DNA from: a virus
Direction: 5' to 3' (one strand)
Virus record (IMG/VR): IMGVR_UViG_3300023170_000074
Location: 1 to 36,920 of that record
Length of the DNA: 36,920 nucleotides
Each line of letters starts with the position of its first letter. Position 1 is the first letter of the stretch. A model generated the notes under the pieces. It was not told the DNA's origin and did not search any database. It was given only the letters and a program-made list of their open reading frames with translations. Made by a program: the position numbers and the translations under genes. This document shows positions 11,181-28,432 of the stretch, in pieces.

Positions 11181-11978
11181 TTAGAAAAATTCTTCTAGAG
11201 TACTCCTCTGACTTGATTCATATGCCTGTTTCCACTTAATTTTAAGTGCTTTCTTTACCAATCCCTTCCATGGACCAGTGGTTTGTTCTTTCTCATAAAC
11301 CTCCACAAAATCGGGAAACTTTTCTGCTAGTATTTCCTGACCTCTATTGTGGTTCTCAATGGTTCTGTAAGTCTCACATCCACCCTTAGTATTGGTGGCA
11401 GAAGGATTGACTCTACAATGATTGAACACTACATTTTGAAATCCAGTGGTGAGTAGTTGTAATGTAAGGTAAAAATCTTCTGGCATTAAAAGATAATTTT
11501 CACCCCAGTCTACACTATTAGGATCAAACTTCTCAGAATAAAACACGTTGGTATATACTCTAGTGTTAAACGAAAATGGCTTTTCGTTGGGTGGAGTATT
11601 GTGAGTAGAAAGTCCACCATGAACATATCCGTCGTCCATAAAACTTTCTATCTTGAGGAGCATATCAGAAAACTCTGCCTCAGTCATAGCAACACCTTTG
11701 AGTTCTGAATTAATTGTTACAAACTTAAGATCGTCATCCATAACAAATATTCTTTTGCCCTTCCAGTTTTGCCCGATATGCTTTCTAGTTACAGCAATAC
11801 CTTTAGTTCCTGAAGGAAGTTTCCATACGTTACAAGATTGGTACTTATCTTTCATGTAATCATATTCATGCTCTTGAACGACCAAGGTAACTATATTATG
11901 AAACTTTGTTGGTATATTACTTAAAGTTATTTGGTTGTCACATCTACCTAATGTTGGGATAATAATTTCTATACTCAT
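11181..11978 (-). CDS. putative TET-associated DNA-base glycosyltransferase (GT-A type), 265 aa
   Basis: A GT-A fold is suggested by MSIEIIIPTLGR at the N-terminus and a DxD metal/nucleotide-sugar motif in RIFVMDDDLKF (D81-D83). The overall pattern, with GIAVTRKHIG before the DDD and EDFYLTLQLL later, resembles the phage TAGT family that glycosylates oxidised 5-methylpyrimidines. It directly follows the TET/JBP-like gene with no gap, which is the expected context. The C-terminus STLEEFF mimics the clamp-binding tail of gp43 (NLEEFFG), suggesting tethering to gp45 during replication. The start is ATG 11978 with GGAG 6 bases upstream, inside the TET-like gene. The substrate sugar cannot be predicted. 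Confidence 0.7.
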   Translation of the reverse strand: MSIEIIIPTLGRCDNQITLSNIPTKFHNIVTLVVQEHEYDYMKDKYQSCNVWKLPSGTKGIAVTRKHIGQNWKGKRIFVMDDDLKFVTINSELKGVAMTEAEFSDMLLKIESFMDDGYVHGGLSTHNTPPNEKPFSFNTRVYTNVFYSEKFDPNSVDWGENYLLMPEDFYLTLQLLTTGFQNVVFNHCRVNPSATNTKGGCETYRTIENHNRGQEILAEKFPDFVEVYEKEQTTGPWKGLVKKALKIKWKQAYESSQRSTLEEFF

Positions 11979-13283
11979 TTATGACTCCACTAATCTATTA
12001 TGTTCTGAAATGCCTTCTTCACCAAGTTTACTTCTCAAATAATCATACCATTCTTGCTCCTTCCACATCCCTGGACTAACACCGTTCCACAGTTTTCTTT
12101 GAAGAGGATGATCAAGATTTTTTCTTCTTGACTCAACATATTCATATCTAGTATTTTCATATTCATATGAACCAAGTTCAAGCATTTTTTCTCTGAGATA
12201 ACAAACCAAAGAAACTCTATGTGAACCTTCTTCACAAACTATTGGTGTGTTACCGTGAATACACTCATGATTATTAATCAGTAACAGATCTCCAGGTCTT
12301 ACGTTAATTGCTATTCTAAGTTCAGGAAGTACTAAGTATCCACCAGTATATCTACCATCATTAGATAGAACTAGAAGATTAGATAGTCCATCAGTAAAGT
12401 CTCCAGCATCTCTATGGCAAGCTGTTCTAAATGTCTTATTGACAGTAACTGTAGTAAATACTGTTTCAGGAACTACAAACTTTGGATCAATTTTATTAAT
12501 CGCTTCCTGTTGAGCAGCATGTCTTTTAGGTAAAAGATTTTGAAATCCTTTAGAAAGATTCTTTAAAAATGGAAAAGACATTTTAAATTTATCAAAGTTG
12601 TCTCTAGTATACGATGTGGCTCTACCATAAGGTATCCTAGGATACCGATCAAACCAACCAGCAATACCAGAATCTACTGGGTTGCCATAGGTAGTTTCAC
12701 TAATATATTTTTCTATCTCTCTGACAGCTTCAGCTCTTTTCTTATGATCAAATCTTTTGATAGATTCTAACCAAACATCAAAGTCAAAACCCTCATGTAT
12801 TCTATAGATAACCCACACATTATTTTTACCACCACCCAATGCTTTCTTTCTAGATTCTTCCGTGGGGTACTTTGCGTTGACTACGTCGATTGGATCTTCT
12901 GCGAGAAAAAAATCACTAGCACTTTCGTGTTTTAATAATTCGTCCATCATTTCTTGTTGATAGTTAGTTACCCAAACTCTAGTACCGTCTCCAACATTAG
13001 TTCCGTCTTTAGTTCCAGACGCTAGACCTCTGTTTTCTGTACTAACAGCAGCACCTATCAAACCATCATAAGCATCTTTCTGCTCTTGTTCATTGAAATA
13101 ATTTTTTCTAAACTTGAAAGCAATCCGCTTCTCACTTACTTGATCTGTATCTTCAAGATTATTAGAAGGAAGATAACAATCAGTATCTTTATCAATTAAA
13201 ATATCATAATAACTGTCGTCTACAAATTTACCCAGAAGATCTTCACAGTCAATTAATTTGTCAGCAAGTATAGTTCTTACCAT
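11979..13283 (-). CDS. TET/JBP-like 2-oxoglutarate/Fe(II) dioxygenase, 434 aa
   Basis: The catalytic core lies at ~280-365. CHRDAGD gives H290-x-D292, NNHECIHG gives the distal iron ligand H343, and SHRVSLVCYL gives R356 for 2-oxoglutarate. The spacing and the segments TGGYLVLPE and NVRPGDLLLI match the TET/JBP family (double-stranded beta helix), which hydroxylates the methyl group of 5-methylcytosine or thymine in DNA. The N-terminal ~280 residues are not recognised. ATG 13283 has an excellent ribosome site (AGGAG). The next gene is a glycosyltransferase, which supports base hypermodification. A generic prolyl-hydroxylase-like role is the main alternative. No DNA C5-methyltransferase is in this window. 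Confidence 0.75.
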   Translation of the reverse strand: MVRTILADKLIDCEDLLGKFVDDSYYDILIDKDTDCYLPSNNLEDTDQVSEKRIAFKFRKNYFNEQEQKDAYDGLIGAAVSTENRGLASGTKDGTNVGDGTRVWVTNYQQEMMDELLKHESASDFFLAEDPIDVVNAKYPTEESRKKALGGGKNNVWVIYRIHEGFDFDVWLESIKRFDHKKRAEAVREIEKYISETTYGNPVDSGIAGWFDRYPRIPYGRATSYTRDNFDKFKMSFPFLKNLSKGFQNLLPKRHAAQQEAINKIDPKFVVPETVFTTVTVNKTFRTACHRDAGDFTDGLSNLLVLSNDGRYTGGYLVLPELRIAINVRPGDLLLINNHECIHGNTPIVCEEGSHRVSLVCYLREKMLELGSYEYENTRYEYVESRRKNLDHPLQRKLWNGVSPGMWKEQEWYDYLRSKLGEEGISEHNRLVES

Positions 13284-16057: not shown

Positions 16058-16609
16058 TCACGGATTGTTTTTCGAATGTGGTACATCAAATACGAATGTT
16101 ATTCTTACTTCATCACCGATGTTCTCAGTCCCATGTTCAAGTTTATTATTAAACCACAACAAAGTTCCTGGTTCTACATCATAATACTCATCACCTACAT
16201 AATAACGATACTTACCTTGAATAGAAAGATGATAGCGATCTTTCGTTTGATAATAACTACCTATATCAATGTGAGCACCGACGTGACCAGCAACTGGCAA
16301 CGAAAGAAACCCACAACGTTTAAACTTCTTGAAGTGCCTCTTTAAAAACTTAATTATCTCAGTATGACGCTCATACGCAGGCGTAGGAATACATATCTCA
16401 GTATCCCCAACATATTCTTCAGGTTTAGTTATACCACCAATAACTAGTTGCAAAACATCTGCTTCTATTTTGGGGAACCCATGTTTATCTATATTACTCT
16501 TCACACCCTCAATAGTTTTATTGTTACCCCAATCTTCAGGGTATTGTTTCAACTGATTGAGTATTTTAGATACATTAATACCTGTTTTAATTATGCGTAT
16601 ATTTTTCAT
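16058..16609 (-). CDS. aspartyl/asparaginyl beta-hydroxylase-like 2OG-Fe(II) oxygenase, 183 aa
   Basis: [11 protein letters not shown] supplies H113-x-D115, [13 protein letters not shown] the distal H159, and [10 protein letters not shown] the 2OG-binding R169. The fold and spacing match the Asp/Asn beta-hydroxylase type common in marine T4-like phages, and are distinct from the TET-like enzyme further downstream. The substrate is unknown (protein or small molecule). It is coupled to gp43 by an ATGA overlap and sits just before uvsX, so it is embedded in the replication block and probably expressed early to middle. Confidence 0.75.
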
Positions 16610-19723: not shown

Positions 19724-20215
19724 TCATTTATCATCGCTTTCTGCGAGAAATTGCTTCTCGCCATCGGAAGGTTGGTTAATTTCGATTTTCTTTGGCTTCT
19801 TATGCTCTGGAATAATACGCTCAAGGAAGATCTTAAGCATACCATTAATCATATCAGCACCCTGAATCTCGATATGATCGTTCAAAGCAAATGTTCGTGT
19901 GAAGTTTCTTGTCGCTATACCTTTGAATAGGTAGTCGTCATTATCTTCATTAGCGTTACCCGATACAACTAGTTTGTCTTCAACAAATTCAATTTCGATT
20001 TCAGATTTGCTGAAGCCAGCAACTGCCATCTCAATCGTGTACTTGTTCTCGTCAACCTTTTTAATATTGTAAGGAGGGTAGTTAGGGATGTTTTTTGTGA
20101 TATCGTCGTGTAGTTTTGCTAGACGATTAAATTGATCATCGTAACCTACAAAAAATTTATCAAAATCTTTGAAGGATGATGGATTAAAGAACGTATCTAG
20201 ACCTTTAAGAGTCAT
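19724..20215 (-). CDS. hsp20: small heat-shock protein Hsp20 (alpha-crystallin domain), 163 aa
   Basis: An ATP-independent chaperone found throughout marine T4-like phages. The alpha-crystallin domain spans ~45-140: YTIEMAVAGFSKSEIEIEF, KLVVSGNA, RTFALNDHIEI and NGMLKIFLERIIPE. KKIEI is the C-terminal I-x-I anchoring motif. The N-terminal arm (FNPSSFKDFDKFFVGYDD) is Phe-rich as usual. AAGGAG sits 7 bases before ATG 20215. It lies between a structured RNA leader and three short genes. Confidence 0.93.
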   Translation of the reverse strand: MTLKGLDTFFNPSSFKDFDKFFVGYDDQFNRLAKLHDDITKNIPNYPPYNIKKVDENKYTIEMAVAGFSKSEIEIEFVEDKLVVSGNANEDNDDYLFKGIATRNFTRTFALNDHIEIQGADMINGMLKIFLERIIPEHKKPKKIEINQPSDGEKQFLAESDDK

Positions 20216-20322
20216 GTGTTTCTCCTTTTCAGCGAGTTAATAAAATTTGCTACCCAATAGGCGTAGCTATTTGGTGGTTTTAACTGGACCACCAACCAGT
20301 TCCCATTCCGTAGGAATCAGAA
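20216..20322 (-). promoter_or_regulatory. structured leader upstream of hsp20 with mutually exclusive hairpins
   Basis: A 107-base gap with overlapping potential stems. TGGTGGT (20272-20278) pairs with ACCACCA (20288-20294), while AACTGG (20282-20287) pairs with CCAGTT (20296-20301); the two cannot form together. A third, imperfect stem joins CCAATAG and CTATTTGG. There is no T run and no clear promoter. It may be an RNA switch or attenuator for hsp20, or the 3' processing end of the PqqA-like message. Inference from pairing only. Confidence 0.4.
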
Positions 20323-20394
20323 TTACTTATTAGCGATATACATCGTGACTTCAAAGCCAAAACGCATTTCGGTATATTCAGGTGTTGACCACAT
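20323..20394 (-). CDS. pqqA: PqqA-like peptide (pyrroloquinoline quinone precursor), 23 aa
   Basis: A 23-codon frame beginning MWSTPEYTEMR and ending GFEVTMYIANK. It matches the PqqA pattern M-W-x-x-P, R11-x-G13, E15-V-T-x-Y19-I-x-N-K at the same positions and length as the Klebsiella-type peptide. Glu15 and Tyr19 are the residues that PqqE crosslinks to build pyrroloquinoline quinone. The ribosome site AGGAG lies 7 bases upstream of ATG 20394. No pqqB-E genes are in the window, so any use would rely on host enzymes. It could also be a decoy or a signal peptide. It sits between a small conserved gene and hsp20. Confidence 0.8.
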   Translation of the reverse strand: MWSTPEYTEMRFGFEVTMYIANK

Positions 20395-20465
20395 ATGTGT
20401 TCTCCTAAGTTATAACTGTCCATTATTGAGCATTATTACTTATTCATAGACACACATATTTGACC

Positions 20466-20490
20466 TAGTGAAAATCATTAGTTTCCACTA
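20466..20490 (-). promoter_or_regulatory. hairpin downstream of the 54-aa gene
   Basis: On the minus strand TAGTGGAAA pairs with TTTTCACTA (9 bp, one G-U) around a 7-base loop. It lies 14 bases after the stop at 20504 and 72 bases before the PqqA-like start. There is no U tract, so it may be a processing or stability hairpin rather than a terminator. Confidence 0.45.
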
Positions 20491-20503
20491 AATCAAAATT
20501 TAT

Positions 20504-20668
20504 TTAAGCAGCTTGTGCTTCCTTTTCCTTATCTGCTTGTTCGTTGACTTGTGGCTGTCCTTGCTCTTTGATCTTTGCGACTAGAGTTACTACTTCATCA
20601 AATGGATGGCGACCCAATACACGAAGAATCATATTTACTTCCTCAAGACTCAATTCAAGTTTAATCAT
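20504..20668 (-). CDS. small conserved phage protein, 54 aa
   Basis: Starts MIKLELSLEEVNMILRVLGR, continues HPFDEVVTLVAKIKEQGQPQ and ends in a Lys/Glu/Ala tail. This is a recognisable short family next to regA in marine T4-like phages: a helix-loop-helix of unknown function. The ATG lies inside the last codons of regA (8-base overlap), with AGGA upstream in regA. It was missed by a 60-residue length cut-off but is well supported. Confidence 0.8.
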   Translation of the reverse strand: MIKLELSLEEVNMILRVLGRHPFDEVVTLVAKIKEQGQPQVNEQADKEKEAQAA

Positions 20669-21098
20669 TCACTTTCCTTTCATTTAGTTTTTTACCAATG
20701 TTATATTTTTGAACAAGTTCCCACTGTTCCTTTTCCTTATAGGAAACTACTTTAATCTGAGACAGAGATGCTTTGTTATCTGCCTTAGAAGAATCTACAA
20801 TTTTTAATAACTCCCAATCTTGCAACAACGAAGCAATAGCATTTCTTCTCTCGATATCATTGCTAGTAATATTTGCTTCTTTACCGTCCAAAGCAAATAG
20901 TTCTTTGAAGTGAACTATAAAATATTTACCTTGCTTGTGCAAAATATGGCAGGATTGATATAATACCTGCTCTTTCTTGGACGCTATTCCTATCCGAGTT
21001 AGTGTTTCCCGAACCTTCAAAAAGTTATCTGGTTCTGGGAGTGTAATCTCCAACATAGAATCAGGAGTCCAATCATAATAGATTGTCTCAACGCTCAT
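20661..21098 (-). CDS. regA: translational repressor RegA
   Basis: A 145-residue RNA-binding repressor of early phage mRNAs. The core FLKVRETLTRIGIA, VLYQSCHILHKQGKYFIVHFKE and WELVQKYNIG matches T4 RegA (122 aa) closely. T4 RegA binds the initiation regions of 44, 45, 62 and its own message. The start at 21098 is coupled to the gp62 stop (TAATG) and adds ~14 residues over T4; an internal ATG at 21056 (MLEITLPEPDNF) fits the T4 N-terminus better, so the true start is uncertain. Confidence 0.93.
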   Translation of the reverse strand: MSVETIYYDWTPDSMLEITLPEPDNFLKVRETLTRIGIASKKEQVLYQSCHILHKQGKYFIVHFKELFALDGKEANITSNDIERRNAIASLLQDWELLKIVDSSKADNKASLSQIKVVSYKEKEQWELVQKYNIGKKLNERKVND

Positions 21099-25103: not shown

Positions 25104-26219
25104 TTAAACGCTACTTTCTTTTTCAGTATTTCCAAAGTCTTCGCTATTTGGCTCAGAACCAACTTTATCAAACAAGTCGATAAATGCTAGTTTGGTTACA
25201 CTGTCAAATCTGTTGCAGCAAAGTTCAATCGCTTTCTTTTGATCTTTGAAGATAGAAAAAGCACGAACGATATGAGTCATTCGACGAGTAGTGATTGTTT
25301 CATCAACACCACCCTCAGCAAAGGTTCTACGTATAGCATCAGCCCACTTTACCATAATCTTCGCAAACTCTTCATCAACACAACCAAACGACTCCATAAG
25401 TTTGATAACGATTTTAGTTTCAACAGACAGTGAAGGATAATCCTGCTCAAGGGTAACAGCAAATCTCTCAAGGAATGCTTCATTCAAAACATTAGTGCCA
25501 ATGTAACGACCATCGTCAGATCCCTTACCTTTGGTGTTAGCAGTAGCAATAATGTTAAACCCAGCAGCAGGAGTGATCACTTCGTTCTTAAGTTTAAAGT
25601 AATATGGCTTACCCTCAAGTATTGGCTGCAAACATAACAACGTATTTGGAGCACCAGCGTCAATCTCATCAAGCAACAGAGTTGTGCCAGTACGCATAGC
25701 AATTAGTACTGGACCTTCAACAATCTGAACATTACCGTCAACCAAAGTTTTAGTTCCGATCAGTTGCTCTTCGTCAGACATCATGTTTAGATTAACACGA
25801 ATTAATGGTTGTTTACGTTTGGCACAAACTTGTTCAACCATAGTTGACTTACCGTTACCAGTTGGACCACTGATATAAACTGGATAGAACTGCTTAGAAG
25901 AAACAACAGTATCTATGTCTCGATAATTTCCAAACGGAACAAAATTGGAATCTTGTGTTGGAATTAGAGATTTAGTATCAGTATAGTCCACGTGTACAGA
26001 TTTAGTAGGTTCAGGTAACTTTGGTGCAGCATTACCACCGTCAATAGAATATAATCCTCGACCAACAGTATTTTTCATAAGTTCATATGGCCACGAGTTA
26101 GTTCCCAATGCCTCACGAACTTGAAGGATTTCTTTCTTTGTAACTTTACCTGTCTTAACAGAATCAGGAAACATCTCAGATATTTTTTCTACAAAAACAG
26201 TTTCATTTAATTTAGCCAT
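25104..26219 (-). CDS. cobS: MoxR/CobS-type AAA+ ATPase, 371 aa
   Basis: Walker A GPTGNGKST (118-126), Walker B in TTLLLDEIDAG, sensor-1-like NIIATANTKGKG and NEAFLERFAVTLE with the arginine finger define a MoxR-class AAA+ ATPase. Marine T4-like phages label it CobS, after the cobaltochelatase subunit. The adjacent VWA protein suggests instead a MoxR-VWA chaperone pair that remodels a protein complex; true cobalamin synthesis would also need CobN. ATG 26219 has GGAG 7 bases upstream; a TTG at 26237 is rejected. Confidence 0.85.
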   Translation of the reverse strand: MAKLNETVFVEKISEMFPDSVKTGKVTKKEILQVREALGTNSWPYELMKNTVGRGLYSIDGGNAAPKLPEPTKSVHVDYTDTKSLIPTQDSNFVPFGNYRDIDTVVSSKQFYPVYISGPTGNGKSTMVEQVCAKRKQPLIRVNLNMMSDEEQLIGTKTLVDGNVQIVEGPVLIAMRTGTTLLLDEIDAGAPNTLLCLQPILEGKPYYFKLKNEVITPAAGFNIIATANTKGKGSDDGRYIGTNVLNEAFLERFAVTLEQDYPSLSVETKIVIKLMESFGCVDEEFAKIMVKWADAIRRTFAEGGVDETITTRRMTHIVRAFSIFKDQKKAIELCCNRFDSVTKLAFIDLFDKVGSEPNSEDFGNTEKESSV

Positions 26220-26265
26220 CACATTTCTCCATAACAAAATAATAATTTAACAACTCAATAACATT

Positions 26266-26294
26266 AGTATACTGCAACTTTGAATTAAAGTAAA
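26266..26294 (-). promoter_or_regulatory. sigma70-type promoter for the CobS-like gene, TTTACT-17-TATACT
   Basis: The -35 TTTACT (26294-26289) and -10 TATACT (26271-26266) are spaced 17 bp apart. It lies in the gap after the VWA gene and shares a 34-bp block (33 matching) with the promoter before the VWA gene. Confidence 0.75.
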
Positions 26295-26301
26295 GTTTTT
26301 T
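26268..26301 (-). repeat. repeated promoter cassette, copy A
   Basis: Matches 28461-28494 at 33 of 34 positions. A further 14-bp exact match (26322-26335 and 28504-28517) covers the preceding stop-codon region in both places. The two copies flank the VWA gene. Confidence 0.85.
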
Positions 26302-26332
26302 CCAAACTTTTTTACTAATTAAAATCAATAAC

Positions 26333-28432
26333 TTACGCAATAATATCAACAAACCTATCTAAAAGGATCTTAGAAGTGGTCTGTTTAGTCATAAATTTAG
26401 TAAACTGTTTGGCTAATTTATTCGGTGTCATAGAATCATCAGCTACCAGTTCCTCGTTGTCATCTTTCATCTTATTCATTGGAATTATAAACATCGCATC
26501 TTTCGTTGTATTCTGTAGGTTATAGTAACCAGATTCACGGAATGACTTTTTAGCAGCGACAGTTATTTCCGAAACCGCATTAGAATAATAATGTTTAATA
26601 TCTAATCTGTTTGCATATACAGCATTAGAAATTTGACCTTTAGTGTTGGGGCAAATATAAAATCCAATGACTTTAACATCATGTCTGTTCTTGAGCATAT
26701 CAATAAACATATCTGTTTCAGCAGTTGATTGTTTGCCATAGTTTGAATCAGGCATTCTGTATTTCTTTTTAGTTACATGATCAACAATAAAGTTAGTAAG
26801 ATATTTACCATCCTCATATCTTGGTATGTCTTTCAATGTTCTAAATCCTTCGCCATCAGACAATGTGACCATGGTCATTTTTTGAATGTTAGTAGAACGA
26901 GTAATCTCAGGAATGTACTTCAACATATACCGCAAAGCATCATTCAATGGTGTTCCGTGTAAATTATATTTTGGTCCATTACACACGTTAAAAACTTTGG
27001 TATCAAAAAGTCTGCGACACATCTCAGTAAACTCTTTTTTAGACATATCGCTTGACAAAAATTCTAATAATCTAAAATTAATAGCAGCGGGAACTTTTCT
27101 AGCAGACAAAGCAGCATTGTACTCATCATACACTTCGTGGTTTTGCCCATCGTACTTTGATACTTCATAAGAGTTGCTGAATGCGAGAACTCTAAACGGT
27201 ATCTGAGTTTTTCTGCAGAACATTGCCAAAGATATCAACTGTTTTATAGTATCATGAATAACACGATCCATAGAAGCTGACCAGTCTAGTAAAAATACCA
27301 TACCATGATTTTTAGAGTCAGCGATCGTAGTAATCTGTTTAAAGATATCGTCTTTAATTTTGTAGGCAAAAATCTTTTTCATATCAAGTGAACCACTCTT
27401 TGAAACTTTGGCTCGCTTATATTGATCAGCAGATTTCTTAAGTTCAAACTGTTTCACCAAGTAGTTCACAACCTTAGTAGAGTCTTGCATAAATCTAGAA
27501 AACTGTGAATCTACTGATTCTATTTGATCATCAAGCATCCACCATGGGCGGTCAGGATTAGCAGTTTCCTCTAGGATAGTTTTGTATCCAATAATAGGAT
27601 CAGTCTTGTAGTTTTCTAATAACTCGTATTCAACATAAAAAGAATTAGGATCTGCCATTTCTTGAATATTCTTTTTCATGTTTTCTTGAGTCTCAGAAAT
27701 TGGCTCTTCGTTGAACTCATCTGAAGAACCACCAGTCGGCTCGTAATCAGCTTCGCCCTCATCAACTTCTTCATCTTGAGATTGATCCTGTTGACTTTGT
27801 GCTTCAGAAGTCATTTCTTCTTCTTCCTCGTCATCATCAGAATCCATCTGCATCATCTCTTCAGATAACTGCTCTTTCTCTTCTTCCATTTTTTCTTTTT
27901 CTAAGTCGTATAATTCTCTTGCTATCTGCAACACTTCTTCTTCAGTTTCAGCAAGTTCAATACGCTTAACATATGGAAGTTCTTCTGAGTTAAACTTAAC
28001 GCCACAGAAGATACCTAGTTTGAAATAAAGGTTTGCTCTATCGATAAATGGTAGTTTGTTTATATCTTTATCTTTGATACCAAACAAGTCACGTTTGTTC
28101 AAATCTTTATAACCAGATAGAAAATACTTTATCATTCCTGGATATAGACGTTTAACTAATTTTTCGATTCGAGCATCTTCAATAACATTCACAAAAGAAT
28201 GGAACCCACGTCCCATATCTTTGATAGACTCAAGCATATCAAGTGAAGTGTATAAAGCATGCCCGATCTCATGACCGACCAGCATAGTCTCTAAATCTAG
28301 AGACATATCCTTCCATTGCGGAAGAGTGAGGACTCTGGTCTTTACATCAAAAGAGGCAGTCTCAACAGGTTTGCGAGTAACTGATAGATTTTCAGTAGCA
28401 AGCAAATTAGCAACTTTATCAATATAATTCAT
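26333..28432 (-). CDS. cobT: HExxH metallopeptidase-like + VWA (CobT-like) protein, 699 aa
   Basis: The N-terminal part has VGHEIGHALYT (H54, H58 zinc ligands) and NVIEDARIEK with E85 as probable third ligand, a zinc-metallopeptidase layout. Residues ~180-250 are a highly acidic linker. Residues ~375-600 form a VWA domain with MIDAS DWSAS (383-387) and TLSDGEG. CobT-type VWA proteins partner CobS-like AAA+ ATPases, whose gene follows. It may form a remodelling or proteolytic machine rather than a cobaltochelatase. It has its own promoter, and its flanks carry repeated promoter cassettes. Confidence 0.85.
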   Translation of the reverse strand: MNYIDKVANLLATENLSVTRKPVETASFDVKTRVLTLPQWKDMSLDLETMLVGHEIGHALYTSLDMLESIKDMGRGFHSFVNVIEDARIEKLVKRLYPGMIKYFLSGYKDLNKRDLFGIKDKDINKLPFIDRANLYFKLGIFCGVKFNSEELPYVKRIELAETEEEVLQIARELYDLEKEKMEEEKEQLSEEMMQMDSDDDEEEEEMTSEAQSQQDQSQDEEVDEGEADYEPTGGSSDEFNEEPISETQENMKKNIQEMADPNSFYVEYELLENYKTDPIIGYKTILEETANPDRPWWMLDDQIESVDSQFSRFMQDSTKVVNYLVKQFELKKSADQYKRAKVSKSGSLDMKKIFAYKIKDDIFKQITTIADSKNHGMVFLLDWSASMDRVIHDTIKQLISLAMFCRKTQIPFRVLAFSNSYEVSKYDGQNHEVYDEYNAALSARKVPAAINFRLLEFLSSDMSKKEFTEMCRRLFDTKVFNVCNGPKYNLHGTPLNDALRYMLKYIPEITRSTNIQKMTMVTLSDGEGFRTLKDIPRYEDGKYLTNFIVDHVTKKKYRMPDSNYGKQSTAETDMFIDMLKNRHDVKVIGFYICPNTKGQISNAVYANRLDIKHYYSNAVSEITVAAKKSFRESGYYNLQNTTKDAMFIIPMNKMKDDNEELVADDSMTPNKLAKQFTKFMTKQTTSKILLDRFVDIIA

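Follow-up and report, generated by a model that had tools for sequence, protein, structure and literature searches.

A pqqA gene in a T4-like phage contig

The window, by which we mean the whole 36,920-base virus contig that was analyzed, carries T4-like genes for the major head protein, tail tube, DNA polymerase, replicative helicase, UvsX, sliding clamp, and translation repressor. At positions 20323 to 20394, on the minus strand (read from 20394 to 20323), lies a gene of 23 codons for PqqA, the PQQ precursor peptide. Its translation, MWSTPEYTEMRFGFEVTMYIANK followed by a stop codon, is a complete frame of 23 amino acids that scored above the cut-offs of both Pfam PF08042 (40.3 bits against 21.1, covering profile positions 1 to 19 of 19) and the NCBIfam PqqA equivalog TIGR02107 (47.1 bits against 20, positions 1 to 21 of 21). 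When the entire record was searched blind in all six frames with PF08042, this place alone was returned (E value of 1.1e-10), and the same search of 14 control genomes gave no match. All of the hallmark residues were present (M1, W2, P5, R11, G13, E15, V16, T17, Y19, I20, N22, and K23); by chance, 2 × 36,920 positions should yield about 2.4e-9 occurrences of the hallmark pattern. The peptide has the Glu-x-x-x-Tyr crosslink spacing, and the predicted crosslink residues, Glu15 (codon at 20350 to 20352, minus strand) and Tyr19 (codon at 20338 to 20340, minus strand), match Glu16 and Tyr20 of Methylobacterium extorquens PqqA (PMC10906245). The sequence before the minus-strand frame is TATAACTTAGGAGAACACAT, and the start is preceded by TTAGGAGAACACAT and then ATG, with a Shine-Dalgarno-like AGGAG at 20402 to 20406 (minus strand), 7 bases before the ATG. 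The plus-strand reading of 20323 to 20394 was rejected since its translation was nonsense, and an overlapping mechanical 47-amino-acid open reading frame at 20280 to 20423 was without support.

Profiles for PqqB, PqqC, PqqD, and PqqE found nothing in the window, and in a Methylophilus control genome each of them recovered the corresponding gene. Location beside pqqBCDE, a common but not a defining trait of PqqA, was thus lacking. This is not decisive against PqqA identity because chromosomal pqqA also occurs apart from operons: three of the five chromosomal copies in a methylotroph production strain lie outside them (PMC9851590). Judged from its sequence, the window gene encodes a genuine PqqA, a host-type metabolic gene lying within a real phage genome, as is characteristic of phage auxiliary metabolic genes. 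The initial annotation had described a full-length PqqA-like gene at these positions, with a strong ribosome site, agreement at every hallmark position, a very low probability of chance occurrence, and no pqqB-E in the window. All of these points held, the gene being on the minus strand.

The pqqA gene stands alone between two genes of the same strand. Upstream, across a 109-base gap (20395 to 20503), is a 54-amino-acid protein of unknown function (20504 to 20668, minus strand) with no family match, and downstream, across a 107-base gap, is the small heat shock protein gene hsp20 (19724 to 20215, minus strand; PF00011/phrog_432). A translation repressor family protein (20661 to 21098, minus strand; phrog_242, E value of 1.3e-61) belongs to the same gene block. 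The upstream gap held no promoter match on the minus strand, and a promoter and terminator search near pqqA found nothing above chance.

Other genes of the window were recorded in passing. At 11181 to 13283 (minus strand), a TET/JBP-type 2OG-Fe oxygenase gene (PF12851) adjoins one for a TET-associated glycosyltransferase (PF20691), suggesting that the DNA of this phage carries oxidized and glycosylated bases. An aspartyl/asparaginyl beta-hydroxylase-like protein (PF05118) was encoded at 16058 to 16609 (minus strand), in the phage replication block, and was present in relative L335 too. At 25104 to 28432 (minus strand), an AAA_5 ATPase (MoxR/CobS-like) was followed by a 699-amino-acid protein without a Pfam match; pairs of an AAA_5 ATPase and a large partner occur in T4-like cyanophages as cobS/cobT-like genes.

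Conservation and selection in related phages

Loci of relatives were selected through the neighboring hsp20 and not through pqqA. In 19 of the 69 adequately covered hsp20-related contigs, a same-strand pqqA preceded hsp20 by 107 to 1,012 bases; the remaining 50, with at least 1.3 kb of upstream sequence, had no pqqA there, and 11 further hsp20 loci were too short upstream to be scored. Thus, not all members of the broader T4-like group carry pqqA. Contig L248 was almost the same phage as the window (99.95% identity over 6.3 kb). L068 was more diverged, with shared proteins about 46 to 83% identical to those of the window and the gene order kept, and its pqqA (70% identity) occupied the identical slot; the 54-amino-acid neighbor was kept in both. 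In L107, pqqA lay near the capsid gene, and L125 had it in another orientation, so the gene also moved or was gained more than once.

For pqqA, dN/dS was about 0.10 across the loci selected through hsp20 and 0.145 at those codons that the search pattern described below does not fix, and third codon positions of phage pqqA were approximately four times more variable than second positions. By these substitution patterns, phage pqqA is under purifying selection. The initial annotation had named loss of the frame in close relatives as a sequence-based ground for refutation, and the frame survived this test, given the shared slot in L248 and L068 and the low dN/dS.

Distribution of pqqA among viruses

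A back-translated PqqA pattern found a pqqA frame in at least 120 IMG/VR contigs, each frame being 23 codons long with a Shine-Dalgarno-like site; by our own estimate, far below one chance match is expected in the whole collection. A Shine-Dalgarno-like motif preceded all 146 phage pqqA copies. A 24-residue form, with the ATG one codon earlier, occurred in three contigs and in Melnitz, among relatives found by other means. Both E15 and Y19 were invariant in 127 distinct phage genes, and when the pattern was left unconstrained at these two positions, only the already-found contigs were returned and no variant without a crosslink residue was seen. Clustering of the contigs by shared frames merged nearly all of them at a loose threshold; at four shared frames, 13 groups were formed, three of them large, which gives no more than rough support for several lineages.

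A reference collection of 50,697 phage records was searched with the PqqA peptide. The true matches were nine records of Methylophilales or Methylophilaceae phages (Methylophilaceae phage P19250A and Methylophilales phages Venkman, MEP301, MEP401, MEP402, and four Melnitz strains), which belong to several unrelated lineages, and the uncultured podovirus ctXG6705. Every methylophage record recovered from the collection carried pqqA, but these records are not a complete denominator, since MEP431 to MEP434, HIM624-A, pHIMB624-A, Venkman EXVC038S, MG-MtP1, and RSA-MfP1 (a filamentous phage) are also listed in the taxonomy. No PqqA match was found in this collection for Pseudomonas or Klebsiella phages, whose hosts are able to make PQQ. 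Two matches labeled Acinetobacter phage were set aside as host-like, with a pqqABCDE operon among chromosomal-type genes (the complete operon being seen in one of them). One record labeled Acinetobacter phage MD-2021a, L008 (CAKLQF020000010.1), contained pqqABCDE and a polyphosphate kinase gene and resembled a bacterial chromosome, so that by its content it is probably mislabeled as phage; the other record with this label was CAKLQH020000055.1. Plasmid matches lay on large replicons, most of which belonged to Burkholderiales and Rahnella, and were unrelated to the phage question.

None of the reference phage carriers had a gene labeled pqqA. The records of MEP301, MEP401, MEP402, P19250A, and Venkman list no feature at the frame, and those of Melnitz-1 and ctXG6705 show a hypothetical protein drawn on the opposite strand. 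No PHROGs family matched the window PqqA, and phage pqq genes go unmentioned in the publications on Melnitz, MEP301, and MEP401/402. PqqB, PqqC, PqqD, and PqqE were absent from all of the pqqA-bearing phage records examined.

Quinoprotein genes on viral contigs

One pqqA-bearing viral contig, G199 (72 kb), encoded a quinoprotein dehydrogenase-associated SoxYZ-like carrier (TIGR04557, above the cut-off) 115 bases from pqqA, a 624-amino-acid XoxF-type methanol dehydrogenase whose best solved relatives are the lanthanide-dependent XoxF structures 6oc5 and 6dam, and a formate dehydrogenase alpha subunit (TIGR01591, above the cut-off). No terminase or capsid gene was identified on G199, and its viral nature therefore rests on the IMG/VR listing and on phage-type genes, namely, matches to ribonucleotide reductase and DNA ligase together with tail fiber-like proteins and a phage-like Hsp20. 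This gene set agrees with that of the T4-like viral population VP_266 from Lake Baikal, which contains PqqA and a methanol dehydrogenase (PMC7678222). A PQQ dehydrogenase domain was found in 1 of the 31 viral records examined.

Among the side observations, the viral contig L333/L334 (IMGVR_UViG_3300025120_009955, 33,989 to 42,789) carried a C1 oxidation set consisting of XoxF, formate dehydrogenase alpha, the quinoprotein-associated SoxYZ carrier, and PqqA, and further encoded DnaK, GroEL, Hsp20, and curlin-like proteins.

Host peptides and the host of the window phage

Forty of the 146 phage peptides were identical to a chromosomal PqqA in the sampled set. Among 187 Methylophilaceae genomes, 185 had pqqA and 168 had PqqE above the cut-off; about 171 carried two or more pqqA copies, with up to 12 in a genome (summarized by hand). 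These counts match the published statement that Methylophilaceae have 3 to 12 copies of pqqA while the other pqq genes are typically single (PMC4109929).

The phage peptides nearest to the window PqqA were those of L105 (22 of 23 residues) and L083 (21 of 23), whose contigs otherwise share little or nothing with the window. The window peptide agreed with the PqqA of a Rhodocyclaceae metagenome-assembled genome (MAG), L237, at 21 of 23 residues and with the common Methylophilaceae form at 18 of 23. Thus, the host of the window phage may be outside the Methylophilaceae, and on the evidence of the peptide it is probably a PQQ-making beta- or gammaproteobacterium. Two other routes to the host were uninformative: the best polymerase matches were cyanophages at 56% identity, and the capsid resembled its counterparts in pelagiphage HTVC008M and methylophage Melnitz equally (68.6% identity). 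All isolated pqqA carriers infect Methylophilales, and their hosts belong to PQQ-making methylotrophs. The expectation in the initial annotation of a host with PQQ-dependent dehydrogenases is therefore supported as to the kind of host that isolated carriers infect.

Proposed supply of PqqA to the host pathway

We consider it likely that phage pqqA supplies PqqA to the host PqqDE and thereby sustains PQQ-dependent alcohol oxidation during infection. PqqE, together with PqqD, crosslinks a Glu and a Tyr of PqqA, and a protease, PqqB, and PqqC complete PQQ (PMC10906245). PqqA is the sole consumable of this pathway, one peptide being spent per PQQ, whereas PqqB, PqqC, PqqD, PqqE, and the protease are reusable and already present in the host; the phage would supply only the consumable part. 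Phage-made PqqA would bind host PqqD, host PqqE would crosslink it at Glu15-Tyr19, and the crosslinked peptide would be trimmed and oxidized by PqqF/G, PqqB, and PqqC to PQQ. In this way, PQQ-dependent alcohol (mainly methanol) dehydrogenases could stay loaded and energy could keep flowing after host expression drops. A phage that brings in pqqA and nothing else of the pathway therefore mirrors the hosts, which multiply pqqA alone. We infer that the gene is expressed, that host PqqDE processes the peptide, that PQQ rises, that the phage benefits, and that the host of the window phage is a PQQ-making methylotroph.

Engineering work gives partial support for a benefit of PqqA supply, and there is mixed evidence for this supply being limiting. 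The PQQ gain in Acetobacter was 29% on overexpression of pqqAB but eightfold with the full operon (PMC7936290), whereas a Gluconobacter extract given PqqA peptide converted it to PQQ at 70 to 80%, as cited in PMC9851590.

Of the three options raised in the initial annotation, boosting of host PQQ synthesis was thus the one favored, given the invariant E15 and Y19, the frequent identity with chromosomal PqqA, and the PQQ-making methylotrophs infected by the isolated carriers; there was no positive evidence for a decoy or for a different modified peptide. A decoy or brake that titrates PqqD/PqqE, lowering or redirecting host PQQ synthesis, would bind the same proteins and would accord with the missing pqqB-E, but we regard it as improbable. 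Such a peptide would be expected to lose a crosslink residue, and the invariance of E15 and Y19 in the 127 distinct genes, seen even when the search was unconstrained there, argues against it, as do the peptides identical to chromosomal PqqA and the occurrence of XoxF with pqqA on one viral contig.

It is very improbable, in our assessment, that the supplied PqqA feeds a role of PQQ outside methanol oxidation, such as an antioxidant role or other quinoproteins, in a nonmethylotrophic host. The window peptide does resemble the PqqA of the Rhodocyclaceae MAG and of a Burkholderiales MAG, and these groups are not always methylotrophic; however, the isolated carriers all infect methylotrophs, and phages of nonmethylotrophic PQQ producers had no match except for the two host-like contigs. 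We attach scarcely any probability to a precursor of a different modified peptide, that is, an antimicrobial or signaling RiPP produced with enzymes of the host or the phage. PqqA is itself processed by a radical SAM enzyme, and an orphan precursor gene without an adjacent modifying enzyme would be compatible with this, but the equivalog-level match covered the full profile, there was no variable core region, and the identity with host PqqA in many phages argues against a different product. Finally, phages often pick up host DNA and the frame is tiny, but a functionless captured fragment or spurious frame is highly improbable in view of the chance expectation of about 2e-9 in the window, the purifying selection, the same locus in the diverged L068, and the recurrence in unrelated phages.

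Relation to known systems and significance

Compared with bacterial PqqA (PF08042/TIGR02107, for example, of Methylophilaceae), the phage peptide has the same length, hallmarks, and crosslink Glu and Tyr, and in many phages its whole sequence equals the bacterial one. In contrast, the phage gene stands alone without pqqBCDE, and the window copy adjoins hsp20 and phage replication genes. The Baikal population VP_266, for which a methylotroph host was predicted, is likewise a T4-like phage with PqqA, but its contig, unlike the window, also encodes a methanol dehydrogenase, the two being likened by description and not by sequence (PMC7678222). Viral pqqA has further been listed, without detail, from reservoir sediments (PMC13188868). 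The novelty implied in the initial annotation was therefore too high: phage pqqA itself has been known, from one Baikal viral population, since 2020 (PMC7678222). What seems new is the breadth of viral pqqA, its presence in isolates, and the evidence of selection.

The proposed supply of PqqA by phages has a parallel in a better-known system. Through their photosystem genes, which are auxiliary metabolic genes, cyanophages provide a single limiting component. As with phage pqqA, one part is given and the rest of the host pathway is borrowed; unlike the photosystem proteins, which are long-lived, the part given here is a substrate of 23 amino acids consumed once per cofactor. The phage habit of carrying pqqA alone parallels that of the Methylophilaceae, in which pqqA is multiplied and the rest of the operon is not. 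A broader reading, which in our judgment could fall either way, is that a lone pqqA is near universal in phages of aquatic methylotrophs, was acquired again and again in unrelated lineages that differ in tail type because PQQ supply is limited by its single-use precursor, and went unannotated in isolates because it is just 23 codons long. If so, pqqA would be an auxiliary substrate gene of phages and not an auxiliary enzyme gene.

The cultured pairs (Venkman and Melnitz on H5P1, MEP301, and P19250A) make it directly testable whether phages sustain methanol oxidation by feeding in the consumable of a cofactor pathway. More generally, the case shows that very short auxiliary genes are going unnoticed. 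Overall, phage pqqA probably represents a widespread means of keeping the host supplied with the cofactor during infection.
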